A stretch of DNA of 60,345 bases from a virus. Of this stretch, positions 3,481 to 30,491 are shown one piece after another; position 1 is the stretch's first letter, and each line of letters begins with the position of its first letter. Below the pieces are notes generated by a model, which did not search any database, was not told the DNA's origin, and saw only the letters and a list, made by a program, of their open reading frames with translations. A program made the translations under genes and the position numbers. Where the stretch lies: positions 1 through 60,345 of IMG/VR virus record IMGVR_UViG_3300027861_000031, one strand, 5' to 3'.

Positions 3481-3495
3481 CTTGAGGAGGTAGTA

Positions 3496-14195: not shown

Positions 14196-14783
14196 ACCGA
14201 AACAGAACATAAAATATGCAATAAATGCGAACACTTACAGCCTATAGAGAACTACACTAAAGAGAAAAAACCAGATGGTTCTTATTATTTTCGCAAAAAA
14301 TGTAAAAGATGTAGAAACAAACAAAGAAGAGACAACCAAAAGGAAACTAATTATTGGTCAAAAAGATACCAATCTATGTCTGAAGAGGATAGAAAGGCGT
14401 ATATAAAGAAAAAATCATTACAAAATCAGGAAAGATTTAAAACAAACCCAGAAGCTTTAAAGAATAAAAAAAAATATGAAAAGTCAGATAAGGGAATTTA
14501 CAATAGATATAGAAACGAATGCAACAGAAGAGGTCGTCTTAAACGAGGTATAAAGGTGCTTATTGAATTTGATGACTTTCAAAAATTAATTAACGATAAA
14601 TGTTATTACTGTAATAAGGATAATTGTAGAGGTGTTGATAGGGTATGTGCAGATGGAAATTATGAATTAAATAACGTAAAATCTTGCTGTAATATATGTA
14701 ATCAAATGAAAAACAATATGACTCATGACGATTTTTTAGATCATATTGATCAAATTCTACTAACAATGAGATTATCTTCATAG
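14193..14783 (+). CDS. HNH homing endonuclease
   Basis: A 196-residue protein. The N-terminal 50 residues form a Cys zinc ribbon (CNKC and CKRC), the middle is very basic and helical, and the C-terminal 55 residues hold an HNH-type nuclease: CYYC, then GVDRV (catalytic region), NVKSCC and CNQMKN, in the order seen in virus-encoded HNH enzymes that use two zinc-knuckle Cys pairs. It is a free-standing mobile gene inserted after the spike gene. Confidence 0.8.
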   Translation: MTETEHKICNKCEHLQPIENYTKEKKPDGSYYFRKKCKRCRNKQRRDNQKETNYWSKRYQSMSEEDRKAYIKKKSLQNQERFKTNPEALKNKKKYEKSDKGIYNRYRNECNRRGRLKRGIKVLIEFDDFQKLINDKCYYCNKDNCRGVDRVCADGNYELNNVKSCCNICNQMKNNMTHDDFLDHIDQILLTMRLSS

Positions 14784-16936: not shown

Positions 16937-17737
16937 ATGAATATTCATTCTCAAGATAAAAAATTCTTAGAAAAGCTTAAAGAGATGAGTTTCATGCGTG
17001 TGCGTGTAGGTTCACACCTATACGATATGAACGGTAAAGATTCTGACATAGATTATCTTTATTTGTATGTGAAACCAAAAGAACTTGCGAATAGCTTCTC
17101 TTGGGAGCACCACCAGCTACAATTTAAAGAGGATGGGATTGATCATAATTTCACAGACTTGCATTCGTTTATTCGTAATATTATGACAGGTGATTCTACT
17201 ATTAACTTTGAAGCGCTTCATTCAGAAGAGTTCAAGAACAACCCTAAAGTAAAATTCTTATATGAGAATCGTAAGTGGTTCTACTCATACAATATCATTA
17301 GGTCTTATCTTGGTCTGTCTCGTAGAGACCTTAAGATGTGTACAAAAGTTAGACCAAAAGTGGATGGAATAAACCACAAGAAACTTTACCATGCGTGCCG
17401 TGGCATGAGAGCGGCAGAACATCTAATGAAAGGCGCTTATGAAAATGTTGTGTCTGATATGTTATTTTCTAAGTACTTAAGAGAGATTAAAGACGGTAAG
17501 ATATTAAAATATGAAGCTAGAGAACTCATTAAAGCTACAGATAACTGTATAGGACACACTAGAGAAGAACTTAATAAAAAGTTTGAAGACGGACTAATAC
17601 CAAGGGTTATGAGTGTATATTATATGGAATTATTAGATGTCTGGTTGAAAGGTTTTACTAACCAACACCAAAAACATTTTGACTTTGATTGTCGTTATTT
17701 TTACAACGCTCTTGAGGAGGGTATTAAATATGATTAA
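16937..17737 (+). CDS. RlaP-type nucleotidyltransferase (first copy)
   Basis: A 266-residue protein of the RlaP group (RNA-repair-associated DNA polymerase beta family). The pol-beta signature is clear: VGSHLYD at residues 24-30 and DSDIDYLYLYV at 35-45, where Asp37 and Asp39 would bind catalytic metal. Family members occur with RNA ligases and are predicted to add nucleotides to RNA ends during repair. AAGATG start follows GGAT; the gene overlaps the next by eight bases. A longer relative lies at 23.9 kb. Confidence 0.75.
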   Translation: MNIHSQDKKFLEKLKEMSFMRVRVGSHLYDMNGKDSDIDYLYLYVKPKELANSFSWEHHQLQFKEDGIDHNFTDLHSFIRNIMTGDSTINFEALHSEEFKNNPKVKFLYENRKWFYSYNIIRSYLGLSRRDLKMCTKVRPKVDGINHKKLYHACRGMRAAEHLMKGAYENVVSDMLFSKYLREIKDGKILKYEARELIKATDNCIGHTREELNKKFEDGLIPRVMSVYYMELLDVWLKGFTNQHQKHFDFDCRYFYNALEEGIKYD

Positions 17738-18356
17738 TCCATTTAAATATGTGCCGGTTAGAACTAACCAATATCTCTACGGCAAAGATTTTTTGGAGAC
17801 TAGATGGGGTATTGTTATCTATGAGGCTAACTATGAAATAAAGCCATTGGGAGCTGTAGCTTTAGTTCCTAAAGACACTTATAAAAAAATTAAAGCTTTT
17901 TTAAAGCCCGTTGAAGGGCAGTACGAGTGGCAAAAGATGACGGACGGTGTTACCAAAGCAATGGATGTTTATATAAAAGATGCTGATAAATATCAACATC
18001 CTATCGGTATTGATAGAGATAGTCTTGTTAAACTACATAAGCATGTTGCAGATCAATGGAAAGAAAGAATCTCTCACTCCAGCGGCTATACTTTGTTGCA
18101 ATATAACGTTAGAGCATCGTTTTTTAGAAGTGGCTTTTTAAGACAAATGGTTAGTCATAGCGACTGGTATGAAGCTCCGCTAAAACCTCATAGATATGGT
18201 GGAGAAGAATTCACCAAAACTACCTATTTAAAATATTTTATGGCTCACTACGGTTCGATAGTTTATTGTAAAGTTATGAACTTTTTCAATCGTAAAAAGA
18301 TCGCAAAAGATAAGGCTGAGCAACTAGCAAAACATAAGAGTGGCTTCTATGATTAA
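17730..18356 (+). CDS. hypothetical protein in the RNA-repair island
   Basis: A 208-residue protein of unrecognised family. The ATG at 17730 is chosen because GAGGAGGGT lies before it. The sequence has many Tyr, Lys and His residues, including a conserved-looking RSGFLRQMVSHSDWYEAP stretch (about 130-147), but no enzyme motif I can name. Tight overlaps with RlaP upstream and the next gene suggest a shared job. Confidence 0.6.
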   Translation: MINPFKYVPVRTNQYLYGKDFLETRWGIVIYEANYEIKPLGAVALVPKDTYKKIKAFLKPVEGQYEWQKMTDGVTKAMDVYIKDADKYQHPIGIDRDSLVKLHKHVADQWKERISHSSGYTLLQYNVRASFFRSGFLRQMVSHSDWYEAPLKPHRYGGEEFTKTTYLKYFMAHYGSIVYCKVMNFFNRKKIAKDKAEQLAKHKSGFYD

Positions 18357-18627
18357 TCCAGAAGATATTGCTGAAAATGTTGCTGAAGGTATTAGAAACA
18401 TATTGAGCCTCAATCTTGGTAAAAAATCAGACGAAGAAAGATGCGTTAACATTAAAGGACAGGTAGACGCCTTTCTTTTTGATTTTATGTATGTTAATAG
18501 ATTAGCAAAAGTGCCAATAGTTAGGGTTGTAAATGAAGGTCCGTTCATTACAATTAATTTTTTCGATAAAGAGGATAACCGATTAGAATCAGTACCAGAT
18601 ATGATTAAATATATGGAATTAGAATAA
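18349..18627 (+). CDS. hypothetical protein
   Basis: A 92-residue alpha/beta protein; the ATG at 18349 overlaps the previous gene by eight bases. Helix at residues 4-20, strands near 60-75. No family recognised. Ends one base before an extended -10 promoter. Confidence 0.55.
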   Translation: MINPEDIAENVAEGIRNILSLNLGKKSDEERCVNIKGQVDAFLFDFMYVNRLAKVPIVRVVNEGPFITINFFDKEDNRLESVPDMIKYMELE

Positions 18628-18640
18628 CTGTGGTATTATA
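18628..18640 (+). promoter_or_regulatory. extended -10 promoter
   Basis: CTGTGGTATTATA with -10 TATTAT at 18634-18639. It lies between two genes, 36 bases before the small HTH gene, leaving room for a short leader with AAAGGAGAT. It would also transcribe the structured leader and the Rnl2 gene. Confidence 0.6.
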
Positions 18641-18675
18641 CGATACCAAACTAATTAGTCACAAAGGAGATTATC

Positions 18676-18855
18676 ATGGCTAAAAATAACACTCTTCGCA
18701 ACGCAGGAAAAGCTTTCACAACAAATGAGGAAGCAATTCTTCTCAGTAGCGCAGGTCTTCTACCTGCAACCCAAATTGCTCTTAAGCTTGGTCGTACAGT
18801 AAAAGCTGTCCGTCGTAAAGCTGAAAAATTTGGACTACTTTTAACAGTTAAGTAA
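18676..18855 (+). CDS. small SANT/Myb-like HTH protein
   Basis: A 59-residue protein with a strong AAAGGAGAT site. Residues 14-54 have the pattern of SANT/Myb-like helix-turn-helix domains common in phages: FTTNEEAILL, then ATQIALKLGRTVKAVRRKA, where TVKAVRRKA is the recognition helix. It probably binds DNA and may regulate transcription in this region; direct evidence is lacking. It has its own promoter and is followed by a structured RNA leader. Confidence 0.65.
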   Translation: MAKNNTLRNAGKAFTTNEEAILLSSAGLLPATQIALKLGRTVKAVRRKAEKFGLLLTVK

Positions 18856-18942
18856 CAAAGTGTGGATAGGACGCATTTCCACATTGGGTCGTCCGTGGTG
18901 ATAAGTGGGATTTAGGTCACCGTTATTAAAAAAGGAGAAAAC
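18856..18942 (+). promoter_or_regulatory. structured leader with predicted pseudoknot before the Rnl2 gene
   Basis: TGTGGA (18861-18866) pairs with TCCACA (18878-18883). Inside that loop GGACG (18869-18873) can pair with CGTCC (18890-18894), giving an H-type pseudoknot. A third stem, GGTGA (18897-18901) with TCACC (18917-18921), extended by G-T pairs, follows. The Shine-Dalgarno AAAGGAGAA comes ten bases later. A translation control element, ligand- or protein-binding site, or a small RNA are all possible. Confidence 0.5.
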
Positions 18943-19956
18943 ATGGACTTTACAAGATATCAATCAATAGATAATTCTTACAGGCTTAAAACAATTGGCT
19001 ATATTCAGGAAGGACTTCCAGGCGCTACTTTTGTAGTTCAAGAGAAGATTCACGGCTCGAACTTCGGTGCTTTCACTGACGGTGAAGAAGTTAAGTTTGG
19101 CAAGATAGGTTCCTTTCTAAAAGAAGGCGATAGTTTCTATAACTATGAAGTTAACGTTGATATTGCAGAATACTCTCGTAAGATTAAAGAAATGTTTGAA
19201 TTTGCAAAGAGAGGGCATCCTCATATAAAACAATTAGAAATTCGTGGTGAAATTTGTGGCGGTTCATACCCTCATCCTGACGTTGAAAAAGTGGCTGGAG
19301 TTAGTAGGGTTCAAAGTGAAGTATTGTATAGCCCAAATATTCATGTTTTAGCGTTTGATATTAAAATTGATGGCGAGTTTGTAAATATGAATGTTTTTAC
19401 TACATTGTGTGAACAGTTTGATATTCCTTACTTACCACTTCTTTTTAAAGGTACTTTGGAAGAATGTCTAAACTATTCAAATGAATACCCACCACACCTA
19501 CCAGGACTTTTAGGATTACCTCCTATTGAAGATAATGTGTGTGAAGGTAACGTTATTAAACCACTAATAACTGCTAGATTTGATAACGGTAAGCGAGTTG
19601 TTGTTAAAAACAAAAACGCTAAATTCTCAGAGAAGTCTGGTCAAAAAGGTACTCCACAATCTAAAGACCCAGTTCCTCAACATGTTATGGATATGATGGA
19701 AAAGGGTAGCATATACGTGTGTGAGAATAGACTCAAAAACGTTTTATCTCACATCGGTGGGGTTCAGCAAAATGAGTTTGGTAAAATCCTAGGATTAATG
19801 TCTAAAGATGTTATTGAAGATTTTGTTAAAGATGAGCCAGAATTTCTAGAAATGGATAGGAAAGAGCGTAAAGAAGTAACTCGATTCTTAAACGGTAAGA
19901 TCGGCTTTCTAATTAGAGGTAACTTTTCCAATATCATTGATGGAACTTACTGTTGA
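18943..19956 (+). CDS. rnl2: Rnl2-family RNA ligase
   Basis: A 337-residue ATP-dependent RNA ligase like T4 Rnl2, which seals 3'-OH/5'-phosphate nicks in double-stranded RNA. All nucleotidyltransferase motifs are visible: motif I EKIHGSN at 34-40 with Lys35 as the adenylated residue, motif III RGEI at 101-104, motif IV CEGNVIKP at 200-207, motif V VVKNKNAKFSEK at about 220-231. The length and the C-terminal helical domain (RLKNVLSHIG, FGKILGLM) also match T4 Rnl2. Good AAAGGAGAA site after a structured leader. Confidence 0.9.
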   Translation: MDFTRYQSIDNSYRLKTIGYIQEGLPGATFVVQEKIHGSNFGAFTDGEEVKFGKIGSFLKEGDSFYNYEVNVDIAEYSRKIKEMFEFAKRGHPHIKQLEIRGEICGGSYPHPDVEKVAGVSRVQSEVLYSPNIHVLAFDIKIDGEFVNMNVFTTLCEQFDIPYLPLLFKGTLEECLNYSNEYPPHLPGLLGLPPIEDNVCEGNVIKPLITARFDNGKRVVVKNKNAKFSEKSGQKGTPQSKDPVPQHVMDMMEKGSIYVCENRLKNVLSHIGGVQQNEFGKILGLMSKDVIEDFVKDEPEFLEMDRKERKEVTRFLNGKIGFLIRGNFSNIIDGTYC

Positions 19957-20165
19957 AAATTAAACTATACAGACATACCGTAAAAAAGACGGAATACTTA
20001 CATAAATCTAGCGGTCACAGTCCTAGGTATTACTATCACCAAACTAATTGGGATTCAATATCTACATACGTCCCAGGTCTAGACTATGAAATAGTACTGA
20101 CTGAGGAAAAAGAAATTGAGGTTGCAGAAAAATGCATCAGAAGAAAGAAAAATGAAAAAAGTTGA
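19953..20165 (+). CDS. hypothetical basic protein
   Basis: A 70-residue protein starting at TTG that overlaps the ligase stop (TTGA). Lys-, Arg-, His- and Tyr-rich at the N-terminus. No family recognised. The start is inferred from coupling and is uncertain. Confidence 0.5.
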   Translation: MKIKLYRHTVKKTEYLHKSSGHSPRYYYHQTNWDSISTYVPGLDYEIVLTEEKEIEVAEKCIRRKKNEKS

Positions 20166-20727
20166 ATGTAAAAACCCTAGAGTTACCGAATTAAAGAAAG
20201 GTGATACTAGGAGACATATCAACGCCACTAGCTTTAAAAAGATCATGAAAAACGGTTTAAAATACTGTGCTTGGTGCGGTGAAAATAGAGTGACAGGTAG
20301 AAGAAAATACTGCAATGACGCCTGTAGAGATAACTGCTATGCGTTTTGTATGCCTCAAAAAGAACACGGCTTAGAGTACCACCTTCAGTCTCAAGACTTC
20401 AAATGCGCTGACTGTGCCTTTGACTATAGACAGACGATGGATAAAATGGATGCAGCCTACAAAAAGAGAAATCTAGTAGGATGGAGTGAAAGTAAATTAG
20501 CCGCCAACCCTTGGTATTTTGGTAGACTTAAAAACCTAGTAGAAAAAGAGTTTGGTAGAAAGAAAAAGCCAGAGGTTGATCATATTGTACCAATAGCCTT
20601 AGGTGGAGACGTAGTTGGTTTCGATAACCATCAAGTCCTTTGCTATGAATGTCATAAAAACAAAACCAAGACCGATATAGGAGATATAGCCAAACATAGG
20701 CGAGAAAAAAATGAAGTCGAAGTTTAA
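20152..20727 (+). CDS. HNH endonuclease with zinc finger
   Basis: A 191-residue protein. A Cys-rich N-terminal module (CAWCG, then CNDACRDNC) is followed by a second pair (CADC), and the C-terminal 60 residues form an HNH nuclease: VDHIVPIALGG with catalytic His, then Asn-His in FDNHQVLC, and CHKNKTKTD. It is probably a free-standing homing endonuclease, though the family also includes packaging-associated and McrA-like nucleases. The ATG at 20152 overlaps the previous gene; its ribosome-binding site is weak. Confidence 0.75.
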   Translation: MKKVECKNPRVTELKKGDTRRHINATSFKKIMKNGLKYCAWCGENRVTGRRKYCNDACRDNCYAFCMPQKEHGLEYHLQSQDFKCADCAFDYRQTMDKMDAAYKKRNLVGWSESKLAANPWYFGRLKNLVEKEFGRKKKPEVDHIVPIALGGDVVGFDNHQVLCYECHKNKTKTDIGDIAKHRREKNEVEV

Positions 20728-21001
20728 ATACGGTGATAAAGTCCTTGCCGGACACCATAAGGGTAAGGTTGTTTCGGTTCGCTTTGTGAACAGCACATAT
20801 CTTTGCGCCGTCAGATTTGATGACTTAAAACTAATCCCTCGAGAGATGGAGTATGAAGAGTTTTATTTAAAGTTTCAGCACGAGTGGGATGAGGTTTGCC
20901 CAAGCTGTGGCGATAGATGGAATATCTCTAAATTTAGAATGCATGTATGGAAAGACTGTCTTAAATGTAAAAAAACTCAAGAGGAGCTTGAAAATGGTTA
21001 G
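20711..21001 (+). CDS. KOW/SH3-like plus zinc-ribbon protein
   Basis: A 96-residue protein: an SH3/KOW-like barrel at residues 1-45 (YGDKVLAGHHKGKVVSVRF) and a Cys4 zinc ribbon at about 62-87 (CPSCG, CLKC). This suggests RNA or ribosome contact but the function is not known. It overlaps both neighbours. Confidence 0.55.
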   Translation: MKSKFKYGDKVLAGHHKGKVVSVRFVNSTYLCAVRFDDLKLIPREMEYEEFYLKFQHEWDEVCPSCGDRWNISKFRMHVWKDCLKCKKTQEELENG

Positions 21002-21239
21002 ACAAAGATTAGTTGATCAGTGGCTACAAATGCAAGGCTGTCATACAGATATGGATGATGATATTATGTATACCGACAGTGAAGGTAAGCAAAAAATTAT
21101 CGGTCACTTAAACGGATACGAAATCACAAATAACAGTGACGGCTCCACCGATCTTCATGTTGACATCACAGCTCACCACAAGATTGAATTTCTAAATATT
21201 AAATGCGTTATAAGTAGAAATGGTGTGGAGGTTGAATGA
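20994..21239 (+). CDS. hypothetical protein
   Basis: An 81-residue protein. The ATG at 20994 with GAGGAG upstream is preferred to an in-frame ATG at 20889 deep in the previous gene. Beta-rich second half. No family recognised. Overlaps the next gene by four bases (ATGA). Confidence 0.55.
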   Translation: MVRQRLVDQWLQMQGCHTDMDDDIMYTDSEGKQKIIGHLNGYEITNNSDGSTDLHVDITAHHKIEFLNIKCVISRNGVEVE

Positions 21240-21565
21240 AAGAACCTCAAATTTATATAACAGACTGGAATCACTTTTATAAGTATTGTGACAAGAAGGC
21301 TAAGACTGCTGACTGTCGTATTAATAATAAAGGCTGGGGCAAGCTCAGAGAATATCACTTAGAAAACTATCTCAAAAGAGTGCAAAACCCTTACGGTTTT
21401 TTATTTAATATTAAGTTCAACTATAAATATTTATACAATAAAAACCAATGCTTATCTAAGTTTTTCCATAAATATTCAAGAATACGAAAAAAATCGTTTG
21501 ACTCCATAGGTAAATCTGTGGTAGAATTTCCATCATGGAAAGGTTTCTTAAGGAGGAACGATTGA
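21236..21565 (+). CDS. hypothetical basic protein
   Basis: A 109-residue Lys-, Tyr- and Asn-rich protein of unrecognised family. Its 3' end contains a promoter-like element and the Shine-Dalgarno of the next gene. Confidence 0.5.
   Translation: MKEPQIYITDWNHFYKYCDKKAKTADCRINNKGWGKLREYHLENYLKRVQNPYGFLFNIKFNYKYLYNKNQCLSKFFHKYSRIRKKSFDSIGKSVVEFPSWKGFLRRND
21516..21527 (+). promoter_or_regulatory. possible extended -10 promoter
   Basis: CTGTGGTAGAAT resembles the class consensus (TGTGGTATTAT) with two changes in the -10. It lies 35 bases ahead of the CCA-type nucleotidyltransferase, inside the preceding gene. Weak candidate. Confidence 0.3.
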
Positions 21566-22182
21566 ATTCTAAACTACAACATATATTCTACCTACTAGGT
21601 CTCCACTCTCCCAACAACTACTTGGTTGGCGGCTGCGTTAGAGACGGATTTTTAGGCGGCGATATTAAAGATTACGATATCGTTACAGACGTTCCTATGG
21701 ATGTGTCTAGAAAAACGCTTGAAGACTACGGTTGGAAGGTTAAAGAGTGTGGAGAGGCTTTTTTAGTTCTTAACGTTAGTAAGGATGGAGAGCAGTATGA
21801 AATCGCTAACTTTCGTAAGGAAGGTGTTTACCTGGACGGTAGAAGACCTGCCAACGTTGAGATCGGAACTATCGAAGAAGACGCTCAAAGAAGAGACTTT
21901 ACAATCAACGCCTTATATGAAAACCCTGTAACTGGTCAAATCTTGGACCCTACAGGCAAAGGCTTGTCTGACATTAAAAATAGAGTACTTAGATTCATCG
22001 GTAAACCTAAAGAACGTATTAAAGAAGACTACTTAAGAGTTTTTAGATTTTATCGATTTTTAGCTTGCAAAGAACTAGTCTCTGACGTAAAATCAATGAA
22101 AGCATGTAGGCAGTACTTTAATGAAGCTTACGAAAACACAACGCCTGAACGAGTTAGGCTAGAAATGGAAAGGATGATATGA
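21562..22182 (+). CDS. CCA-adding enzyme-like nucleotidyltransferase, head and neck only
   Basis: A 206-residue protein with class II tRNA nucleotidyltransferase motifs: LVGGCVRD (21-28), KDYDIVTDV (36-44, Asp37 and Asp39 metal ligands), RRDFTINAL (110-118), and the neck motif ERIKEDYLRVFRFYRF (151-166). CCA enzymes rebuild or repair the 3' CCA of tRNA. Full-length enzymes are about 400 residues; this one ends after the neck, and an HD domain like that at the C-terminus of E. coli Cca is encoded two genes downstream. The TTG at 21562 behind AAGGAGG is preferred to the ATG at 21535, which lacks one. Confidence 0.8.
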   Translation: MNSKLQHIFYLLGLHSPNNYLVGGCVRDGFLGGDIKDYDIVTDVPMDVSRKTLEDYGWKVKECGEAFLVLNVSKDGEQYEIANFRKEGVYLDGRRPANVEIGTIEEDAQRRDFTINALYENPVTGQILDPTGKGLSDIKNRVLRFIGKPKERIKEDYLRVFRFYRFLACKELVSDVKSMKACRQYFNEAYENTTPERVRLEMERMI

Positions 22183-22403
22183 GAAAGTATTTTACAAACA
22201 AAGGTTACCCTTTAACTTTAAATGATCTAGATGGCTGTAGGAGTCATTTAATCGAGATTGAAGAATTAGATATTGATGATATGGAAGTAAAAGTATCAGA
22301 CGTATCCAACGCCGTTAATCACGCTAGTCACTCTGATAAGTTGATATTTGAAGATGGGCTTCGTAAGGGTTTTTACTTACCTTATATTGAAAAGGGATAT
22401 TAA
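22179..22403 (+). CDS. hypothetical protein between the CCA-type and HD-Pnk genes
   Basis: A 74-residue protein overlapping both neighbours by one to four bases, so it is made in step with them. It is acidic with two probable helices. It does not look like the missing body domain of a CCA enzyme. No family recognised. Confidence 0.55.
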   Translation: MRKYFTNKGYPLTLNDLDGCRSHLIEIEELDIDDMEVKVSDVSNAVNHASHSDKLIFEDGLRKGFYLPYIEKGY

Positions 22404-23464
22404 TGGAATTCACAGTAGCAAATTTAGTTAAATGGTTCCAGCTTAAACACTCTAAGATTGTTAAGGCTATGATAGAGTCTAATCATCACTACGATGCAGA
22501 ATTTCTATTAAATCCTTATCATCTGGAAGGTGACGTATGGACTCATACTATGATGGTTGTATTAGAAGCTTCTAAACTAAAAAAGAAGCTGGATGGAAAT
22601 ATGTATAATCATGTTTTAGTATCAGCCTTACTTCACGATATTGGAAAACCCTTAGCTCGTAAGGTAAGTAAAGAGAAGAAGCGTGTGCATTTCTGGGGTC
22701 ATGAGCCGATCTCTGCCTTTCTTTGTATATCTATCTTAAAAGATATTGAGAAAGAGTTTAATATAAAATTAAACCATAGACTTATTATAGAAGCTATCGC
22801 AATGCATACGGATGTTTACAACGTTCCTAGAGAAAAACTGGCAGATAGGCTTATTAAAAACCAACCGTTAGCAGACCTATTAAGCTACTTATCTTCCGCA
22901 GACTACGCTGGGCGTTTTTTTGAAATGGGTGAAAGAGATATGGAACATATTGAAGTAAAACCTTCAAGTGGACTGTACGCACCAAAAGAAACCAAAGAAG
23001 TTGTTTGTATGATCGGATTACCTTGCTCTGGTAAAAGTACAGTTCTTAAGGATATGAAGGAGCAGCATGAAGGTTATGTTGTATTATCTCGAGACGATAT
23101 TGTAATGGAGCTTGGTCGCAGAACGTCTTTCAACCTTTCATACAATGAAGCGTTCAAATTAGTTGATCAGAAAGAAGTTGATAAAATGTTCCAAGGTCGT
23201 CGTAGTACTTATATTAAATTAGGATTAAACGTCATAATAGATATGACAAATATGGGGCGTAAGGCTCGTAGAAGGAATATGCAGGGCTTTAAAGACTATT
23301 ATAAGACAGCCCATGTATGTATGACTGACCTCGCCACGATTCGCCATAGAAACGAACACAGAGCCGGTAAGGTACTCCCTCAGCGTGTGTTTGAAAATAT
23401 GACTAATAGTTTCCAGCCGCCTTTGTATGATGAGTTTGATCATATTGATTGGACGATCACTTGA
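22403..23464 (+). CDS. HD-Pnk: HD phosphoesterase fused to 5' polynucleotide kinase
   Basis: A 353-residue RNA end-healing enzyme. Residues 1-185 are an HD domain: His48, His78-Asp79 (LLHDIGKP), His100 (WGH) and Asp167 (SSADYAG). Residues 198-353 are a T4 Pnk-type kinase: P-loop GLPCSGKS (205-212), SRDDI (229-233), and a lid region NEHRAGKVLPQRVFENM. The same fusion, HD-Pnk, is known from bacteria, where the HD part removes 2',3'-phosphates and the kinase phosphorylates 5'-OH ends, preparing breaks for ligation. The HD part may also cooperate with the headless CCA-type protein upstream (inference). Confidence 0.85.
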   Translation: MEFTVANLVKWFQLKHSKIVKAMIESNHHYDAEFLLNPYHLEGDVWTHTMMVVLEASKLKKKLDGNMYNHVLVSALLHDIGKPLARKVSKEKKRVHFWGHEPISAFLCISILKDIEKEFNIKLNHRLIIEAIAMHTDVYNVPREKLADRLIKNQPLADLLSYLSSADYAGRFFEMGERDMEHIEVKPSSGLYAPKETKEVVCMIGLPCSGKSTVLKDMKEQHEGYVVLSRDDIVMELGRRTSFNLSYNEAFKLVDQKEVDKMFQGRRSTYIKLGLNVIIDMTNMGRKARRRNMQGFKDYYKTAHVCMTDLATIRHRNEHRAGKVLPQRVFENMTNSFQPPLYDEFDHIDWTIT

Positions 23465-23883
23465 AACAGTTTGAAGTAAACAATTTAGTAGACGCTACAA
23501 GCCTATGTCGGGATTTTGACGTAGATATTTTGTTTACTTATTCTGATGAGGGTTCTGAGGTTGACGTTAAGAAGAGAGAAATAATTATAGATTTAGAGGG
23601 CGTCAATTCTTTAAATCTATTTTGGAGCTTAGTGTTTCATGAGCTATGTCATATTAAATGCTATGATGAAGATAAGTACTCGATATTTCATAAAAACACG
23701 CTTCCAAAAAAAGAGATGTATCAATATATGTTAAAAAATGGCTTGCGTATTGAGCGTTTTGTTGATAAAATGGCAGCTAAGATGATGAAGCAATACCTTC
23801 CTCGTCGAACCTATAAGTACTCTTATATAGATCAGGTTGATATTGACTACTTCTATAATTGGGTTAAGGAAGGATATGAATAA
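23461..23883 (+). CDS. ImmA/IrrE-like zinc peptidase
   Basis: A 140-residue protein with FHELCHIKC (HExxH zinc site, about residues 61-69) and, some 40 residues on, ERFVDKMAAKMMKQYLP, which matches the second conserved helix of ImmA/IrrE-type peptidases (Glu ligand, Asp, Ala). Relatives cleave DNA-binding regulators or act in toxin-antitoxin pairs. The start is taken as the TTG overlapping the previous stop (TTGA), with only a weak site upstream. Its partner is unknown; the small HTH protein at 18.7 kb is one candidate. Confidence 0.6.
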   Translation: MKQFEVNNLVDATSLCRDFDVDILFTYSDEGSEVDVKKREIIIDLEGVNSLNLFWSLVFHELCHIKCYDEDKYSIFHKNTLPKKEMYQYMLKNGLRIERFVDKMAAKMMKQYLPRRTYKYSYIDQVDIDYFYNWVKEGYE

Positions 23884-24940
23884 GGATTGTAAAAAATTTA
23901 TTGATGAATTTCATGAGCTACACCCTGGTAGAGAGATTATCTTTCTTATCAAAGCCGGCTCTCACTTCTTTGACTTAGCCTCTCCAACGTCTGATACAGA
24001 CTATAGAGGAATCTATATGCCTTCATTAGAAGAGTTTTATAACGGCGAATCCAAGCGTAAGTTCTTTGAAAGAAAAACGTTAGCTGGAAACAAGACCGGC
24101 GTTAAAAATACTAAAGAAGATACAGATATGTATTTATTTTCATACACTTTTTTCTTAGACCTTTTAAAGCGTGGCGACTTTAACTGTATGGAAATGCTTC
24201 ACGCTCCTGACGATAAGATACTAATTAACTCTGAAGAGATGCAATATCTATCTATTATTAGGAAAACTTTGCTAGTAAATGATATCTCAGCCTTTCTAGG
24301 TTTTATTAAAAGAGAGTATCGTCGATACGGCGTTAATATAAATCACTATAAAATACAAAAAGAGTTTGCAGACTTTCTAAGACCCTACCTACCTCACACA
24401 AAGTTAGAGGATATCTGGTCTGAAATTAAGGAGTATGCGAAAGACGACCCTCAAATTGTTTTCACAACATCCTTAACAGGAAATAACAATAGAGTTCCAA
24501 CGTTGAAGATTGCACAGAGAATGTACCAAAACACTGTTAAGGTTGATTATGTTGTAAAAGGTATCGACTCTAGACTGAAAAAGTATGGTCACAGGCAAAA
24601 GAATATGGCTAAGGCTGGCGTGGAGTTTAAGGGACTTTATCACGCATTAAGATTAATATATGAAGCAAATGATCTCTATGATCACGGTGAGCTTAAGTTT
24701 CCTTTCGACAAGAAACGTCATAAGGTATTGAAATCTATTAAGGATGGAACTGCTAAGAAAAACTATATTTTTAAGTTGATTGACTCTGAGATTGATAAGC
24801 TGTATGATCGTGAAAAAGAAACAATTACCAATAGACCTTCTATTGAGTATAGAGTTAATAAGCTTTTATTCAATATAGAAGGTAAGGCAAAAATTAAGTA
24901 TTTAACGGAGGGTCAGGATGACAGAGCCAAAATTTCCTGA
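23876..24940 (+). CDS. RlaP-type nucleotidyltransferase (second copy)
   Basis: A 354-residue member of the RlaP family, closer to the canonical length and motif than the 16.9 kb copy: KAGSHFFDLASPTSDTDYRGIY at about 26-47 split over the GS and DxD elements (Asp40 and Asp42 predicted metal ligands), followed by the family's FFLDLLKRGDFNCMEML helix. It probably adds nucleotides to RNA during repair. The ATG at 23876 has AAGGAAGG before it. It lies just upstream of the Rnl1 ligase gene, a pairing typical for the family. Confidence 0.8.
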   Translation: MNKDCKKFIDEFHELHPGREIIFLIKAGSHFFDLASPTSDTDYRGIYMPSLEEFYNGESKRKFFERKTLAGNKTGVKNTKEDTDMYLFSYTFFLDLLKRGDFNCMEMLHAPDDKILINSEEMQYLSIIRKTLLVNDISAFLGFIKREYRRYGVNINHYKIQKEFADFLRPYLPHTKLEDIWSEIKEYAKDDPQIVFTTSLTGNNNRVPTLKIAQRMYQNTVKVDYVVKGIDSRLKKYGHRQKNMAKAGVEFKGLYHALRLIYEANDLYDHGELKFPFDKKRHKVLKSIKDGTAKKNYIFKLIDSEIDKLYDREKETITNRPSIEYRVNKLLFNIEGKAKIKYLTEGQDDRAKIS

Positions 24941-25145
24941 AGGCGTTGATAACGCTATTTTTTCATTAGGACCAGGGCAATATATTGCAAAAACTACAGA
25001 CGAAGGTTTGCAGATTAAAAAAGTTCACGGAAATGGTTGGACAATGCCAGTCCATAGCTTGTTTGAAAAAGTTTTATACTTATTTACAGGTAGACTTAAA
25101 GGTGTTAAGGTTATTAATCAGGAGGTAAAGCGTGAAAAAGTATGA
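24918..25145 (+). CDS. hypothetical protein between RlaP and Rnl1
   Basis: A 75-residue protein overlapping both neighbours (23 and 14 bases), with GGAGGGTCAGG upstream. Beta-rich, ends in a basic tail. No family recognised; coupling to two RNA-repair enzymes suggests a related task. Confidence 0.55.
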   Translation: MTEPKFPEGVDNAIFSLGPGQYIAKTTDEGLQIKKVHGNGWTMPVHSLFEKVLYLFTGRLKGVKVINQEVKREKV

Positions 25146-26226
25146 GCCGGATTTTAAACAATTAGACAAGCTAACTAAAGAAGGGTTTATTAGAAAAGTA
25201 ATATCTCCTTGCGGTAGGTTATTTTTGTATAACTATACTGATAAATGTACTTACGAGAAGAAGTGGAATAAACACACTTTAAACGCTCGTGGAACTGTCT
25301 ATGAGGTGGAAACAGGCAATGTTGTTGCAATGGCTTTCCCTAAGTTTTTTAACTTTGGAGAGCTGTCTGTATCACAGCAAAGAAATCTTTTAAAACAAAC
25401 TGATTTTCAATCTTTTGAAAAATTTGACGGTTCTTTTGGTTTAGTTTTTAATTATAAAGGCGAATGGATGTGTACAACTCGTGGCTCATTCACGTCAGAT
25501 CAAGCCTTAAAAGCTGCTCAGATGCTTAAAGAAAAATACAACGGCTTGAAACAAGTACCTGAATGGCTTAATTTAAGAGTAGAAATTATCTATCCTGAAA
25601 ATAGGATAATTGTAGATTATGGTGATCGTGAAGCGTTAGTGTTACTGTCTGTTTATGATCTAGGAACGAATTCTGAAATATCATTGGGTAATTCATACTT
25701 GTTTTCTAATATGGAAAACTGTCGAAAGCACGTATTTGGAACTATCGATCAACTTATTGAAGCTCAATCAAAGCTAGGTAAGATGGAAGAGGGTTTTGTA
25801 GTCCGTTTTGCAAATGGTTTTAGGTGTAAATTTAAATCAGCAGCCTACCTAAAGATTGCTAGGATTATTTCAAACATGACACCTTTAGCTTTTTGGAAGG
25901 CTATGACTAATGGTAAAGTTAGTCCAAGCGTGCTTGAAGAGATTCCAGAAGAGTTTAGAGAAGCGTCTGATAAGATTCAAAGCGGTCTAAGGCTAGCTTA
26001 TTTTAAAGTTTCTAATGAAATACAGGAAGATTATCACTACGCCGTAGAGTCTATTGGCGGTATTAATAGTATTGAAGAAAGCAGAAAAGACTTGGGTATT
26101 TTCATCCAACTTCATGGAAAAGAGATGAAACATCCTGGCGCTATCTTCCCTAAGCTGCTGAATAAAGGTTTAGAAAAATATATTATGAAAGAAATTAGAC
26201 CGAAAGGTAATGAAATTGTGGTATAA
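25132..26226 (+). CDS. rnlA: Rnl1-family RNA ligase
   Basis: A 364-residue ATP-dependent single-strand RNA ligase like T4 Rnl1, which reseals tRNAs cut in the anticodon loop by host nucleases. Visible: FPKFFNFGE (69-77), motif I EKFDGS (96-101, Lys97 nucleophile), RGSF, motif III RVEIIYPENRIIV (149-161), motif IV EEGFVVRF (219-226) and motif V CKFKS (232-236). T4 Rnl1 is 374 residues. GTG start behind GGAGGTAAAGC. Its last codons overlap the promoter of the tRNA that follows. Confidence 0.9.
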   Translation: MKKYEPDFKQLDKLTKEGFIRKVISPCGRLFLYNYTDKCTYEKKWNKHTLNARGTVYEVETGNVVAMAFPKFFNFGELSVSQQRNLLKQTDFQSFEKFDGSFGLVFNYKGEWMCTTRGSFTSDQALKAAQMLKEKYNGLKQVPEWLNLRVEIIYPENRIIVDYGDREALVLLSVYDLGTNSEISLGNSYLFSNMENCRKHVFGTIDQLIEAQSKLGKMEEGFVVRFANGFRCKFKSAAYLKIARIISNMTPLAFWKAMTNGKVSPSVLEEIPEEFREASDKIQSGLRLAYFKVSNEIQEDYHYAVESIGGINSIEESRKDLGIFIQLHGKEMKHPGAIFPKLLNKGLEKYIMKEIRPKGNEIVV

Positions 26227-26228
26227 TA
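26216..26228 (+). promoter_or_regulatory. extended -10 promoter for a leaderless tRNA
   Basis: TTGTGGTATAATA contains a perfect extended -10, TG-G-TATAAT, with the hexamer at 26222-26227. The tRNA begins at 26233, six bases after it, so transcription should start at or next to the mature 5' end. Confidence 0.65.
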
Positions 26229-26232
26229 TAAT

Positions 26233-26322
26233 AGGGCTGTAGCTCAGTAGGAGAGCTGGGAGAGTTGCTATCAGCTGTAGACTTAGTCCTGTGCGGTGGT
26301 GCAAATCCACCCAGCCCTACCA
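26233..26322 (+). tRNA. atypical tRNA or tRNA-like RNA, isotype unresolved
   Basis: Acceptor AGGGCTG (26233-26239) pairs perfectly with CAGCCCT (26312-26318), then A73 and encoded CCA. D-arm GCTC-AGTAGGA-GAGC and T-arm GGTGG-TGCAAAT-CCACC are good. The 38 bases between them, however, do not form a normal anticodon arm: GGAGAGCTG is followed by GGAGAGTTG, an imperfect nine-base direct repeat; the loop TTGCTAT would suit Ser(GCU) but its stem mispairs, and CTGTAGA would suit Tyr(GUA) with mismatches. Length, 90, is that of a class II tRNA. It may be a decayed, insertion-bearing or deliberately odd tRNA. Confidence 0.75.
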
Positions 26323-26338
26323 AATAAGGAGAATTTTT

Positions 26339-26695
26339 ATGCATAATCAATATGACGGTCAATGTTATTTTTCACTTCCAAAAGATTTTTTTGACAAATT
26401 GCCTAAATCTTTACAAAAAAGTTTATCAGAACATATTTCTAGATATAGTATTTTAAGTACATTTCCATTAAACCCTCTCCCACACTTTCAACAAATACCT
26501 GGCGGTCAGGATGTGATGAAGCAAGGGTGTCTTCTACTTTTAGACAAGGCTGACTATCATGTTATTAGCGGCGTTGGTAGGTCTTTTGCTGAATCTACCG
26601 GCGCTAAAGCACAGGCTGAAAAACTTCAAAAAGACTCTGATGAACTCAAAAAGGTTCAATCATCTATGTCTCACTTGAAAGAATTTATAAAATGA
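26339..26695 (+). CDS. hypothetical protein
   Basis: A 118-residue protein with AAGGAGAATTT before the ATG at 26339; in-frame codons farther upstream lie in the tRNA. Globular N-terminus, coiled-coil C-terminus (about 90-115). No family recognised. Confidence 0.55.
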   Translation: MHNQYDGQCYFSLPKDFFDKLPKSLQKSLSEHISRYSILSTFPLNPLPHFQQIPGGQDVMKQGCLLLLDKADYHVISGVGRSFAESTGAKAQAEKLQKDSDELKKVQSSMSHLKEFIK

Positions 26696-26880
26696 TTCCA
26701 GAAAATAAGGTGAATAAAAATAGAAAAAGAGAACTTTGGGTTAAACCTGACGGTTCTATATATAGAGTTTATTGGGCTATCAATGCTGAGTTTGGATTAT
26801 GTTACTCACCTGATTCCGACTATTGTAGTGGGGAATTTTCCAAACATCAACTTGTAGAGTGGGGATATATTAAAAGGTAA
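26692..26880 (+). CDS. hypothetical protein
   Basis: A 62-residue basic and aromatic-rich protein overlapping the previous gene by four bases (ATGA). Beta-rich (ELWVKPDGSIYRVYWAI). No family recognised. Confidence 0.5.
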   Translation: MIPENKVNKNRKRELWVKPDGSIYRVYWAINAEFGLCYSPDSDYCSGEFSKHQLVEWGYIKR

Positions 26881-26886
26881 TTTACC

Positions 26887-27708
26887 ATGATCATATTAAC
26901 CGACATTCACGGAAACTTTGATACAATGATGGCTCTTCTTGATATGATTCCTCAAGAAGAAAAAGATAAGGGTATTGTTATATGCGGCGATCTGATAGAT
27001 CGTGGACCAAAATCTATGCAGATTGTAGATTGGTGTATTGAAAATAAAATCCAAGTAGTTAAAGGCAATCATGAAGCTTTTATGATTGATGAGGTAGACT
27101 TGGTTATAAACTTTATTAAAAGAGCAGGACTTATCCCTAGAGGTAACGCCGGCTCTTTATGGACCGTTCATGGAGGTTATGAGACGCTTGAATCATACGA
27201 AACATATGATGATGAAGCTGTAGACGATAGAGGCGTTCCGATTCGCTTGTTCGACTTTGAAAAACTTAAAAAACATGCCGAGTGGATGGAGAAGCTTCCG
27301 TTATTTTTAGAGTTTCCTAATCTTAAAAATGAAGATGGAAGATATTTAGTATTATCACACTCTAATATTGGAAATGTTTGGAAGATGAGAGACTGCCCTA
27401 AAGAGATTGAATTTGACGTTCTTTGGGGTCGCCCTCGTAAAATTGACGACGTACCTGAAATCTATAACGTTATAGGTCACACCCCACAAGACTACGGTCC
27501 TAGGATACGTAAAACCTATGCTAATATTGATACTGGGTGCTACTATACTAAAGATAATACTAACGGCATGTTAACCGCATTACAATTTCCAGAAATGGTT
27601 ATATACGAGCATGAAAATATCGATTCTAAGGTTGGTCACGTACCTAGAAAAGGTGTTAGAACTGTTAAAGAGATTAAGCATCGAAAGAAACTACGTAAGG
27701 TGAAATAA
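26887..27708 (+). CDS. PPP-family metallophosphatase
   Basis: A 273-residue calcineurin-like phosphoesterase with all PPP motifs: DIHGN (6-10), GDLIDRG (34-40), GNHE (60-63), and later SHSNI and GHTPQD His ligands for two metals. Relatives include lambda protein phosphatase, diadenosine tetraphosphatase and the phosphatase domain of bacterial Pnkp, which heals 2',3'-phosphate RNA ends. Given its place between two tRNAs and near two RNA ligases, an RNA end-healing or ApppN-hydrolysing role is likely, but protein dephosphorylation is also possible. Confidence 0.8.
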   Translation: MIILTDIHGNFDTMMALLDMIPQEEKDKGIVICGDLIDRGPKSMQIVDWCIENKIQVVKGNHEAFMIDEVDLVINFIKRAGLIPRGNAGSLWTVHGGYETLESYETYDDEAVDDRGVPIRLFDFEKLKKHAEWMEKLPLFLEFPNLKNEDGRYLVLSHSNIGNVWKMRDCPKEIEFDVLWGRPRKIDDVPEIYNVIGHTPQDYGPRIRKTYANIDTGCYYTKDNTNGMLTALQFPEMVIYEHENIDSKVGHVPRKGVRTVKEIKHRKKLRKVK

Positions 27709-27711
27709 AAG

Positions 27712-27724
27712 TTGTGGTATTATA
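27712..27724 (+). promoter_or_regulatory. extended -10 promoter for leaderless tRNA-His
   Basis: TTGTGGTATTATA, the exact class consensus, -10 TATTAT at 27718-27723. The downstream sequence ATTATAGGG aligns base for base with ATAATAGGG at the other tRNA, so both should start at the same distance, on the A before GGG. Confidence 0.65.
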
Positions 27725-27727
27725 TTA

Positions 27728-27803
27728 TAGGGGTTAGTTTAACTTGGTAAAACGGTGGATTGTGATTCCGCTCTCAGGAGTTCGAGTCTCCTACCCCTGA
27801 CCA
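27728..27803 (+). tRNA. tRNA-His (GUG)
   Basis: A cloverleaf with D-arm GTTT/AAAC, anticodon arm GTGGA-TTGTGAT-TCCGC (anticodon GTG), T-arm AGGAG-TTCGAGT-CTCCT and encoded CCA. The acceptor TAGGGGT pairs with ACCCCTG, the first pair being T-G. Position 73 is A and no G is available at -1 (that base is A), unlike the usual G-1:C73 of tRNA-His; A73 without G-1 is known in part of the alphaproteobacteria. Confidence 0.9.
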
Positions 27804-27820
27804 CAATAAAGGAAAATATT

Positions 27821-28438
27821 ATGAAAAATGTAGAAACATTACATGAATTCACAGAGTTTGAGACTAAGTATAGGACTGAAAAGCTCCTAGAAGACAAGTT
27901 TAAATCTATCGTATCTGAAATGGATTATAAGAACTTTGTCTACGCCGAAGGTCCAGACCATTACTATACTAAGCCAGACGGGTCTTTTTTAAGATACCGC
28001 AAGGCTGTAACTGAAAAGCGATCTGAAGTAACTCTTAAGGAAAAGCCAACTGGAGCTACTTCTAACATCTCTCGAAAAGAAATTAACTGGAGAGTAGATG
28101 GAAACTCTAAAGAAGCTATCCATCAAGGCGCTCTTATGATGGGCTTTACCTTCAACTTCTCTATTTGGAAGACCTGTCACATATATAATTTTAAAGACGC
28201 TACGCTAGTTTTTTACTCAGTTAAAGACGATAATGATAAGTATGATTATTTTATTGAAATCGAACTTAATGAGAAGACCATTCACACATTAACTCACAAA
28301 GAGGCTATGGATTGTATTAGAAAGTACGAAGAAATCCTATCACCTTTAGGTATCACACACAACAAAAGACTTAAAAAGAGTTTATATGAAATGTATGTTA
28401 AAAACATCTCAGAAGAACCTAAAGAAGCAAAGGCTTAA
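27821..28438 (+). CDS. CYTH-domain phosphohydrolase
   Basis: A 205-residue protein with the ExExK signature of CYTH (triphosphate tunnel metalloenzyme) proteins at Glu12, Glu14 and Lys16 (EFETK), then FLRYRK, EVTLKEKP, and the acidic strand YFIEIEL. Family members hydrolyse triphosphates such as thiamine triphosphate, tripolyphosphate or the 5'-triphosphate of RNA, and some are adenylate cyclases. Being next to a tRNA predicted to be born with a 5'-triphosphate, an RNA triphosphatase role is attractive (inference). The ATG at 27821 follows AAAGGAAA; in-frame codons upstream lie inside the tRNA. Confidence 0.7.
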   Translation: MKNVETLHEFTEFETKYRTEKLLEDKFKSIVSEMDYKNFVYAEGPDHYYTKPDGSFLRYRKAVTEKRSEVTLKEKPTGATSNISRKEINWRVDGNSKEAIHQGALMMGFTFNFSIWKTCHIYNFKDATLVFYSVKDDNDKYDYFIEIELNEKTIHTLTHKEAMDCIRKYEEILSPLGITHNKRLKKSLYEMYVKNISEEPKEAKA

Positions 28439-28440
28439 CT

Positions 28441-28860
28441 ATGTATAAAAAAGTACCATGCGGTCCTACAGCGTTTTTTGACGTAGATGATACATTATTG
28501 ATGTGGGACTTACCTGAAGATATGATGTTGAACGATGATCGATTAGTTAGCGTTCAATGTCGAGACGCTCAAGATATGTTACTACCAAACCATCATAATA
28601 TTCTTCTTTTAAAGAAAATGTCCGTAAGAGGTCACGGTATTGTTGTGTGGTCTGGTGGCGGCAGTGACTGGGCTGAAGCGGTTGTAAAAGCTTTGGAGTT
28701 AGAAGATTTTGTTGATGTTGTAACTTCTAAGCCAACATATTATATTGATGATATTGCAAACTCAAAAGAATGGATAGGAAAACATGGATATTTTACAGTA
28801 GACGGTAAAAGAATTCATGGCGATAATTTTCCAAGAACTCAAGAAATAAAGGAGAAATAA
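28441..28860 (+). CDS. HAD-family phosphatase
   Basis: A 139-residue HAD hydrolase. Motif I FFDVDDTL with nucleophile Asp14 and acid Asp16; motif II region VVWSGGG; Lys and the acidic motif in TSKPTYYIDDI. Small phage HAD enzymes are deoxynucleotidases or polynucleotide 3'-phosphatases like the C-terminal half of T4 Pnkp. Since HD-Pnk here lacks a HAD domain, a 3'-phosphatase role is possible but unproved. Confidence 0.7.
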   Translation: MYKKVPCGPTAFFDVDDTLLMWDLPEDMMLNDDRLVSVQCRDAQDMLLPNHHNILLLKKMSVRGHGIVVWSGGGSDWAEAVVKALELEDFVDVVTSKPTYYIDDIANSKEWIGKHGYFTVDGKRIHGDNFPRTQEIKEK

Positions 28861-29066: not shown

Positions 29067-29516
29067 ATGGAAGATTGTGAACTTAAAAGTGAAGAAATAT
29101 TAAACTATGTAGGAGCCTGTGAAGAAACTGAAGAACCTAAAATGGGCGGCGGTCTTCGATACAATAACGGCAAGGCTGAATTACATCAAGTTCCAACTTC
29201 TTTAATTTTAGCCGTTGCTAAAACTCTCATGTATGGAGCGCAGAAATACGAAAAAGGTAATTTTAGAAAAGGTATGAGTTGGACTTGTGTTTACGACTGC
29301 CTTCAAAGACATATGATGAAATGGCTCGATGGAGAGCAAAACGATGAAGAATCAGGATTACCTCATCTTTATCATGCTGCATGTAATATTGCATTTCTAA
29401 TTGAATATGCTGAAACTTGCCCAGAGTTAGATGATAGGTTTAAAGCAGCTCCTATTAATCAATCTAAGGATTCTTTTGACAAAATAAACTACTCTTCATA
29501 CAAAAAAGATGAGTGA
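29067..29516 (+). CDS. dATP/dGTP diphosphohydrolase-like protein
   Basis: A 149-residue protein resembling the phage dATP/dGTP diphosphohydrolase N-terminal family (DUF5664): GGLRYNNGKAELHQVP (about 29-44), AVAKTLMYGAQKYEKGNFRKGMSW (about 51-74), RHMMKWLDGE, and HLYHAACNIAFLIEY with the metal-binding helix. It would hydrolyse purine dNTPs and adjust the nucleotide pool. A MazG-type enzyme lies two genes on, supporting nucleotide metabolism. Confidence 0.65.
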   Translation: MEDCELKSEEILNYVGACEETEEPKMGGGLRYNNGKAELHQVPTSLILAVAKTLMYGAQKYEKGNFRKGMSWTCVYDCLQRHMMKWLDGEQNDEESGLPHLYHAACNIAFLIEYAETCPELDDRFKAAPINQSKDSFDKINYSSYKKDE

Positions 29517-30027
29517 TAAGTTTTGCTATTCTTGTTTGTTGGACTTACCTAAAAGTTCGTTTGGTAGGGATAAACGAACTTTAGATGGTTTGAGGAGTAA
29601 CTGTAAAGAATGTAGGAATAAATACGAAAAAGCTTTAAGAGATGGTAATTTAGAATACAAAATAAGACAACAAGAGAATAGAAATAAATGGGCGTTAAAA
29701 AATCCAGACAAGGTAAGAGAATTAAAAAGAAAACACAATAAAGGAATAAAACCTAGCGTTCGCAGAGAACAGGCTTTAAAACATAAGTTTAACATTACTC
29801 AAGATGATTATGAAAAAATGTTACAGTCTCAAGACGGGCTTTGTAGGATTTGTCATAAAGAATCTAATAACAAGGTTCAGAAACACTTTCATGTAGACCA
29901 TAATCACGAGACTGGAAAAATTAGAGGATTATTGTGTAATAAATGTAACATGGGACTGGGTATGTTTAACGATAATAAAGACTTAATCAAAAAAGCAATG
30001 GATTATTTAGAAAGATATGATGGATAA
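29509..30027 (+). CDS. endonuclease VII-like HNH nuclease
   Basis: A 172-residue protein: N-terminal Cys4 ribbon (CYSC, CKEC), basic helical linker, and a C-terminal recombination endonuclease VII fold with CRIC, HVDHNHETGKIRG (catalytic region) and CNKCNMGLGMFND. T4 endonuclease VII resolves DNA junctions, but this arrangement with an N-terminal ribbon is typical of free-standing HNH mobile endonucleases. It overlaps the previous gene by eight bases. Confidence 0.75.
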   Translation: MSDKFCYSCLLDLPKSSFGRDKRTLDGLRSNCKECRNKYEKALRDGNLEYKIRQQENRNKWALKNPDKVRELKRKHNKGIKPSVRREQALKHKFNITQDDYEKMLQSQDGLCRICHKESNNKVQKHFHVDHNHETGKIRGLLCNKCNMGLGMFNDNKDLIKKAMDYLERYDG

Positions 30028-30053: not shown

Positions 30054-30491
30054 ATGGAATCGAAAGAATATAAAAAACAAGCACTCAGAACAAATACTCC
30101 AGATATTGAGGGAGTGTCACAAAGAATCTTAAACGGATTTTCTAAGGATTCTAAAAAAGTTATCAACTTAACCGTAACCCATGAAAAAGCTAAGGCTAAG
30201 ATTGATTTACTTCACGCCTCTATGGGTCTTGTAACTGAAGCCGGAGAATTCCAAGATGCTCTCAAGAAACACTTCTTTTACGGAAAAGAGCTAGATTTAG
30301 TTAATTTGAAGGAAGAAATTGGAGACTGCCTCTGGTATTGCGCAGTGGCTTTGGACGCCTTAGGGACTGATTTTGAGGCTGTGATGCAGACAAATATCAA
30401 TAAGCTCAACGCTAGATATCCCGAAAAATTCTCAGAAGATCAAGCTATTAATCGAGATGTTGCTGCTGAGCGTGAAATCCTGAAGAAATGA
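30054..30491 (+). CDS. MazG-like nucleotide pyrophosphohydrolase
   Basis: A 145-residue protein with the MazG acidic metal-binding pattern: TEAGEFQDAL (Glu-x-x-Glu type) and EEIGDCLWY (Glu-x-x-Asp), separated by about 24 residues, in an all-helical protein. It would hydrolyse a nucleoside triphosphate, perhaps dNTPs or (p)ppGpp-like signals. The last gene before a late promoter; its stop overlaps the promoter box. Confidence 0.75.
   Translation: MESKEYKKQALRTNTPDIEGVSQRILNGFSKDSKKVINLTVTHEKAKAKIDLLHASMGLVTEAGEFQDALKKHFFYGKELDLVNLKEEIGDCLWYCAVALDALGTDFEAVMQTNINKLNARYPEKFSEDQAINRDVAAEREILKK

Follow-up and report, generated by a model that had tools for sequence, protein, structure and literature searches.

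An unusually complete candidate RNA-repair operon in a phage sequence, and its head-only CCA-type nucleotidyltransferase

The IMG/VR record IMGVR_UViG_3300027861_000031, a viral sequence of 60,345 bases that is classed as linear and is probably incomplete (hereafter the window), carries an uninterrupted run of genes at positions 16,937–28,860, all of them on the + strand and several overlapping their neighbors. An initial annotation had described this run as an RNA-repair island with two RlaP nucleotidyltransferases, the RNA ligases Rnl2 and Rnl1, a CCA-type nucleotidyltransferase head, an HD-Pnk protein, a PPP phosphatase and a CYTH protein within 12 kb, and searches of Pfam, PHROGs and NCBIfam together with motif checks confirmed the identities of these eight proteins. 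Five core families–RlaP, Rnl1, Rnl2, CCA-type nucleotidyltransferase (NTase) and polynucleotide kinase (Pnk)–all lie inside 7.3 kb of the window. The features are:

16937..17737, + strand: RlaP1, a short Pol-beta nucleotidyltransferase of the RlaP family, 266 aa (PF10127, 41 bits)
18943..19956, + strand: Rnl2-family RNA ligase (PF18043/PF09414, ~61 bits; phrog_548, 202 bits)
21535..22182, + strand: CCA-type NTase of 215 aa with the catalytic head and the start of the neck but no body or tail, called head-only here (PF01743, 109 bits)
22403..23464, + strand: HD-Pnk, an HD phosphohydrolase joined to a P-loop polynucleotide kinase (PF01966 and PF13671, AAA_33; phrog_6931, 196 bits)
23873..24940, + strand: RlaP2, an NrdC.11-like RlaP nucleotidyltransferase (PF10127, 45 bits; phrog_388, 174 bits)
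25132..26226, + strand: Rnl1, an RNA ligase of the T4 RnlA family (PF09511, 58.7 bits against a cut-off of 28.3; phrog_562, 178 bits)
26232..26322, + strand: tRNA-like element adjoining Rnl1 (43.4 bits with the Rfam tRNA model if searched alone)
26887..27708, + strand: PPP-family phosphatase, lambda-PP/ApaH-like (PF00149, 56.8 bits; phrog_246, 126 bits)
27728..27803, + strand: tRNA-His(GTG) (ARAGORN; Rfam, 51.6 bits)
27821..28438, + strand: CYTH-domain protein (PF01928, 25.4 bits, just above the cut-off of 23.2; ExExK present as EFETK)
28441..28860, + strand: HAD-like phosphatase, recognized by motifs only (DVDDT, WSGG, DD)

The loss of catalytic residues that the initial annotation had named as evidence against its reading was not seen: the motifs are intact in both ligases, in the NTases and in HD-Pnk. 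Both RlaP proteins score above the PF10127 cut-off of 23 bits and contain GSxxY/F and the catalytic pair SDxD, which reads SDIDY at residues 36–40 of RlaP1 and SDTDY in RlaP2. Only 2 phage records, those of Salicola SCTP-2 and of a Vibrio phage, contain close relatives of RlaP1. Rnl2 combines a match to PF18043 (T4_Rnl2_C, 61 bits) with the nucleotidyltransferase motifs EKIHGSN (KxHGSN), EGNVIKP and VKNKN and can be aligned to the T4 Rnl2 structure 2hvq; its TIGR02307 score of 176 bits is under the curated cut-off of 197. Rnl1 has EKFDGS (with the KxDG lysine), EGFVV and KFK, which place it in its family, and it scores under the stricter TIGR02308 equivalog cut-off. The statement in the initial annotation that T4 relies on only Pnkp and Rnl1 has to be corrected, because T4 also encodes Rnl2 and an RlaP homolog, NrdC.11 (23% identity to RlaP2, 277 aa).

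In HD-Pnk, the HD domain (PF01966, residues 45–147) is N-terminal to the kinase domain (PF13671, residues 200–340). The protein has the motifs HDIGK, GLPCSGKST and SRD, and its catalytic residues H78, D79, D167, K211 and D231 are invariant across 10 relatives; 2',3'-cyclic phosphodiesterase and 5'-OH kinase activities are predicted for it. Sequence searches of PDB with HD-Pnk and with Rnl1 gave no match. A cellular HD-Pnk is known from Runella, and members of the family are expected to perform the healing step of RNA repair.

The cluster is genuine, and the clustering is beyond chance. We compared the window with 214 related loci, each fetched because it holds at least one of the five families, and scanned all 215 with profiles built in this analysis. 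All five families occur within 12 kb in the window only (1/215); four occur together in 1 locus and three in 34. No near-identical phage was found. Parts of the arrangement recur: HD-Pnk–RlaP–Rnl1 in L004 and L010, Rnl2–HD-Pnk–Rnl1 in L005–L007, and HD-Pnk–Rnl1–RlaP in L063–L069, so that RlaP is linked to a ligase in L004, L010 and L063–L069 as RlaP2 is to the adjoining Rnl1 in the window. In L014 the order is CCA head–RlaP–HD-Pnk, in overlapping open reading frames (ORFs), and in L096 and L193 one long ORF joins a full-length CCA head to HD-Pnk domains. These conserved neighborhoods in unrelated contigs support the description of the region as an RNA-repair island, and the locus appears to be a genuine RNA-repair operon of known type, complete to an unusual degree.

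In L082, HD-Pnk shares an ORF with the C-terminal half of a CCA head, the head being split across two ORFs, the second of which terminates with a ligase-like KTDGQ motif. The very long ORFs of L096 (2246–7168) and L082 (2768–11906) combine a cytidylyltransferase-like N-terminus (GRFQPFHKGH) with a CCA enzyme, a kinase and an HD domain.

The CCA-type NTase is the feature of the cluster that merits specialist attention. It has the motifs GGxVRD, DxD, RRDFT and EDxxR, and it lacks the poly(A)-polymerase signature that we tested. The ORF ends 1 residue past the last motif (ERVRLEMERM), and the protein can be aligned with CCA-adding enzymes over their first half (residues 43–238 of a 420-aa enzyme). 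An AlphaFold2 (AF2) model of it has a confident fold (pLDDT 88.6), and a Foldseek comparison of this model with CCA-adding enzymes, the closest solved structures, gave a TM score of 0.78 when normalized to the query and 0.47 when normalized to the target. The protein thus has the head of a Class II CCA-adding enzyme without the body and tail, and does not reach the NCBIfam CCA equivalog cut-offs; enzymes of that class add C, C and A to tRNA 3' ends.

By alignment search we found 20 non-redundant viral members, including the window's, that end 1–7 residues after the same motif, while nearly all other viral members extend at least 160 residues further. The head motifs (GG..RD, DxD, RRD and EDxxR) are invariant or nearly so across 19 head-only sequences. 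We rejected the explanation that the head-only form is a frameshift or contig-end artefact, because 20 non-redundant ORFs share this end point. A body-domain profile search of the head-only loci detected no body-like ORF nearby. One small ORF follows the gene in the window:

22179..22403, + strand: 74-aa ORF that lies between the NTase and HD-Pnk genes and overlaps the end of the former (no Pfam or NCBIfam match)

This ORF was considered as the missing body domain and rejected, since it does not match ME3_202 (which follows ME3_203, discussed below) and no head-only locus has a body-profile match. Several head-only NTases carry an N-terminal extension of 70–130 residues (L026, L029, L030, L032, L034, L036, L037 and L039).

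In a quick maximum-likelihood tree of 84 heads the head-only forms are one clade (SH-aLRT 94), after correction of two labels: L039 is head-only (it ends 3 residues after the motif) and L145 is full-length (it has a body domain). Among 80 loci from bacterial genomes, fetched with the head-only alignment, three are head-only and one more is cut by a contig end. The three share 51–59% identity with the protein of the window; their genes are on contigs from metagenome bins, one of them adjoining an RlaP gene, and they may be phage sequence. The head-only form seems to be almost exclusive to phages and is hardly ever present in bacterial genomes.

Head-only genes also differ from full-length viral genes in the company they keep. 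We searched at least 10 kb of flanking sequence and counted a partner gene if it was within 8 kb. RlaP is present near 10 of 19 head-only loci compared to 6 of 38 full-length viral loci (P = 0.0055), and an Rnl1 or Rnl2 ligase near 8 of 19 compared to 2 of 38 (P = 0.0013). At least one of RlaP, ligase and kinase is near 15 of 19 head-only loci and 11 of 38 full-length ones (P = 0.0006; without the window, 14 of 18 compared to 11 of 38, P = 0.0012). For kinase alone the difference between the two groups is not significant (P = 0.1).

These numbers bear on the possibility that the head-only NTase simply keeps up the CCA ends of tRNAs from phage and host and that its position in the operon is incidental. 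We regard this as rather unlikely. The enzyme is of CCA type by its motifs and by its nearest structures, tRNA arrays adjoin some head-only loci (L031 and L040), and PMC12851939 describes a CRISPR nuclease that cleaves the tails of tRNAs, all of which would suit upkeep of CCA ends. However, all head-only members lack the body and tail, most of their genes have an RlaP, ligase or kinase gene nearby, which is less common for full-length viral enzymes, and both RNAs encoded in the window already have an encoded CCA. The protein keeps the full nucleotide-selecting core and lacks the parts by which CCA enzymes grip the elbow of tRNA, so we infer that it would act on ends delivered by partner proteins. 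It is tentatively conceivable, at odds well short of even, that head-only NTases are a distinct phage-borne class of repair enzyme that refills bases at internal tRNA breaks (for example, wobble-base loss of the RloC type) together with RlaP, HD-Pnk and a ligase, instead of building CCA tails. If true, this would add a templateless gap-filling step to tRNA repair.

For the locus as a whole we favor, with a probability of roughly 0.68, a phage RNA-repair operon that undoes breaks made in RNA by host RNases, most likely cuts in tRNA anticodon loops. It is the best reading of gene content, intact motifs, recurrent neighborhoods, consistent truncation of the NTase and its distribution as a single clade, all of which are observed; the substrates, the sequence of reactions and the connection with anticodon nucleases of the host are what we infer. 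The HD domain of HD-Pnk would remove the 2',3'-cyclic phosphate and its kinase domain would phosphorylate the 5'-OH; one or more of RlaP1, RlaP2 and the head-only NTase would restore bases lost at the 3'-OH end; and Rnl1 would seal breaks in single-stranded loops, with Rnl2 sealing those held in a duplex. Within this scheme the missing tRNA-binding half and the gene neighborhoods suggest that the head-only NTase would work on damaged, broken ends passed on by its partners and not as an ordinary CCA-tail enzyme.

The refilling step has a known rationale. T4 reverses the cuts made by PrrC through healing by Pnk followed by sealing by Rnl1, and RloC excises the wobble nucleotide, a lesion that has been proposed to defy repair by Pnkp and Rnl1 (PMC2610378). 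Base refilling before ligation, which the initial annotation also envisaged, is not a new idea: RlaP and CCA enzymes of jumbo phages are proposed to restore lost nucleotides before sealing (PMC7824862). What the present analysis adds to the initial annotation is the five-family cluster that is unique in the sample, the head-only clade tied to repair genes, and the comparison with a collinear contig, L055.

L055, a contig of 55.5 kb, is the closest collinear relative that we found, and it shares structural genes with the window on both sides of the locus. It keeps RlaP1 (as a homolog of 177 aa), HD-Pnk, PPP (53% identical), CYTH (49% identical), HAD and MazG, and on this fragment Rnl2, Rnl1, the head-only NTase and RlaP2 were not detected, nor was a tRNA found at the locus by ARAGORN. 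The ligases and additional NTases thus appear to form an accessory layer in this lineage, although a ligase elsewhere in the L055 phage is possible because L055 is a fragment.

This comparison changes the standing of three genes that the initial annotation had counted among the end-healing enzymes. PPP has the motifs DIHG, GDLIDRG and GNHE, but it is not of the bacterial Pnkp type: its nearest PDB entries are lambda phosphatase (1g5b) and ApaH, and it scores only 26 bits with bacter_Pnkp. CYTH has the profile and the ExExK motif of a CYTH triphosphatase; its start is an ATG, an upstream GTG falling inside the tRNA, and pattern scans and tblastn found no relatives of it, one being reached only via the L055 contig. 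For HAD, motifs of a HAD phosphatase (such as the 3'-phosphatase of T4 Pnkp) are present, and the family assignment is putative, with no match in Pfam, NCBIfam or PDB, a marginal PHROG match to a tail family, and a structure model too poor to show a fold (pLDDT 38.5); relatives of this ORF are in L055 and near RlaP in L226. Because L055 keeps all three with HD-Pnk but has no recognized ligases, and because PPP resembles lambda phosphatase and ApaH more closely than Pnkp, we do not count them as repair enzymes, and they may not be repair genes.

Extended to the whole cluster, the same observations raise an improbable alternative, in which the cluster is an accessory set not dedicated to tRNA repair: the ligases, HD-Pnk and phosphatases would process phage RNAs or nucleotides, the 5' ends of RNA or tetraphosphates being the substrates of PPP and CYTH. 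The affinity of PPP to lambda phosphatase and ApaH and the gene content of L055 are in keeping with it, as is the next part of the window, where the island is followed directly by a dATP/dGTP diphosphohydrolase-like protein (dGTP_diPhyd_N) and MazG, at 29067–29516 and 30054–30491. Against it, unrelated phages repeatedly have HD-Pnk clustered with RlaP and RNA ligases.

A third explanation, that the phage carries the cluster as a defence system directed at its competitors, we consider very improbable. Nucleotidyltransferases can be toxins, as described for MenT (PMC11541572), but healing and sealing enzymes dominate the cluster, and PADLOC found no match to a defence system except a generic HD/Cas3 similarity of HD-Pnk.

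Several points weigh against a dedicated tRNA-repair operon. We found no experiment in which RlaP or a head-only enzyme adds a nucleotide during repair; no tRNA nuclease can be named as the target; homologs of HD-Pnk and RlaP1 are present in L055 without a recognizable RNA ligase on 55.5 kb, and HD-Pnk may be doing other work there. In addition, the head-only proteins are one clade, so the co-occurrence test treats related loci as independent, although the partners and gene order vary between members, which supports a real linkage despite the shared clade.

One of the two tRNAs in the initial annotation, tRNA-His(GTG), is ordinary in shape; the other, at 26232–26322, is better described as tRNA-like. 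In the tRNA-His, position 73 is A and G-1 is not templated. The same trait has been reported from Alphaproteobacteria of the Rhodobacteraceae/Rhizobiales/Caulobacterales/Hyphomonadaceae (RRCH) clade (PMC3937112), which is a weak hint of a host in that clade, as phage tRNAs can deviate. L089 also has a tRNA-His, 0.8 kb downstream of its HD-Pnk gene. In the tRNA-like element the acceptor, D and T arms are retained and CCA is encoded, and 38 nt replace its anticodon arm and variable loop, making the anticodon region 14–16 nt too long for a canonical 7-nt loop on a 5-bp stem. It was not called by ARAGORN or by the Rfam scan in default mode; ARAGORN calls it only if run in intron or relaxed modes, which disagree on the anticodon, and an ordinary anticodon cannot be given to it. 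Its constrained cloverleaf folds at -33.4 kcal/mol compared to -33.7 kcal/mol for the unconstrained fold. It could be a degraded tRNA, an odd tRNA with a long variable arm, or a form that evades anticodon nucleases (compare the anticodon loops of phage tRNAs in PMC10264068).

Two further ORFs lie inside the run:

20152..20727, + strand: HNH endonuclease (PF01844, 29.6 bits)
23449..23883, + strand: metallopeptidase-like ORF containing HELCH in its sequence (weak PF18894 match)

The HNH endonuclease is probably a mobile intruder. HNH, HNH-like and GIY-YIG homing-type endonuclease ORFs are scattered through the window, with others at 8044–8775, 14193–14783, 29509–30027 and 46840–47640. Outside the island there are also a further nucleotidyltransferase-like ORF at 3478–4113 (phrog_1614, 46 bits; weak N-terminal match to PF01743) and, on the minus strand at 55261–56259, an aminotransferase class I/II-like gene. 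Promoter and terminator scans gave hits at chance level only.

Whether phages can repair tRNAs that have lost a nucleotide, as after RloC cleavage, has been an open question since 2008 (PMC2610378), and HD-Pnk, the two RlaPs, the head-only NTase, Rnl1 and Rnl2 of the window are a compact, clonable set for in vitro work on it. The head-only clade raises a further question, of how a CCA-type active site that lacks the half for binding tRNA picks nucleotides and a substrate.

Among known systems, T4 resembles the window in its end healing followed by Rnl1 sealing (PMC2610378) and in having the Rnl1, Rnl2 and RlaP/NrdC.11 families; it differs in having Pnkp where the window has HD-Pnk, and the window adds a second RlaP and the head-only NTase, all in one operon-like run. 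For jumbo phages, healing, refilling and sealing of cleaved tRNAs have likewise been proposed for a set of RNA ligases, RlaP, a CCA enzyme, a kinase and phosphatases, but the CCA enzyme is described there as restoring the CCA end, and the available portion of that paper (PMC7824862) does not mention a head-only form. The same families are dispersed in the genome of Ruegeria phage RpAliso. Sinorhizobium phage phiM12 has Rnl2, NrdC.11/RlaP, Rnl1 and a CCA-type enzyme within ~17 kb (region 125–142 kb), but its CCA enzyme is full-length (415 aa), and a search for HD-Pnk gave partial matches only. Campylobacter phages such as CP220 share the HD and kinase architecture of the window's HD-Pnk, with invariant catalytic residues, although in CP220 the gene is ~110 kb from Rnl1 on record coordinates. 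In Acinetobacter phage ME3, ME3_203 has no adjoining RlaP or ligase, an Rnl2-type ligase being ~25 kb away, but it is itself a head-only CCA-type NTase, with 49% identity to that of the window.

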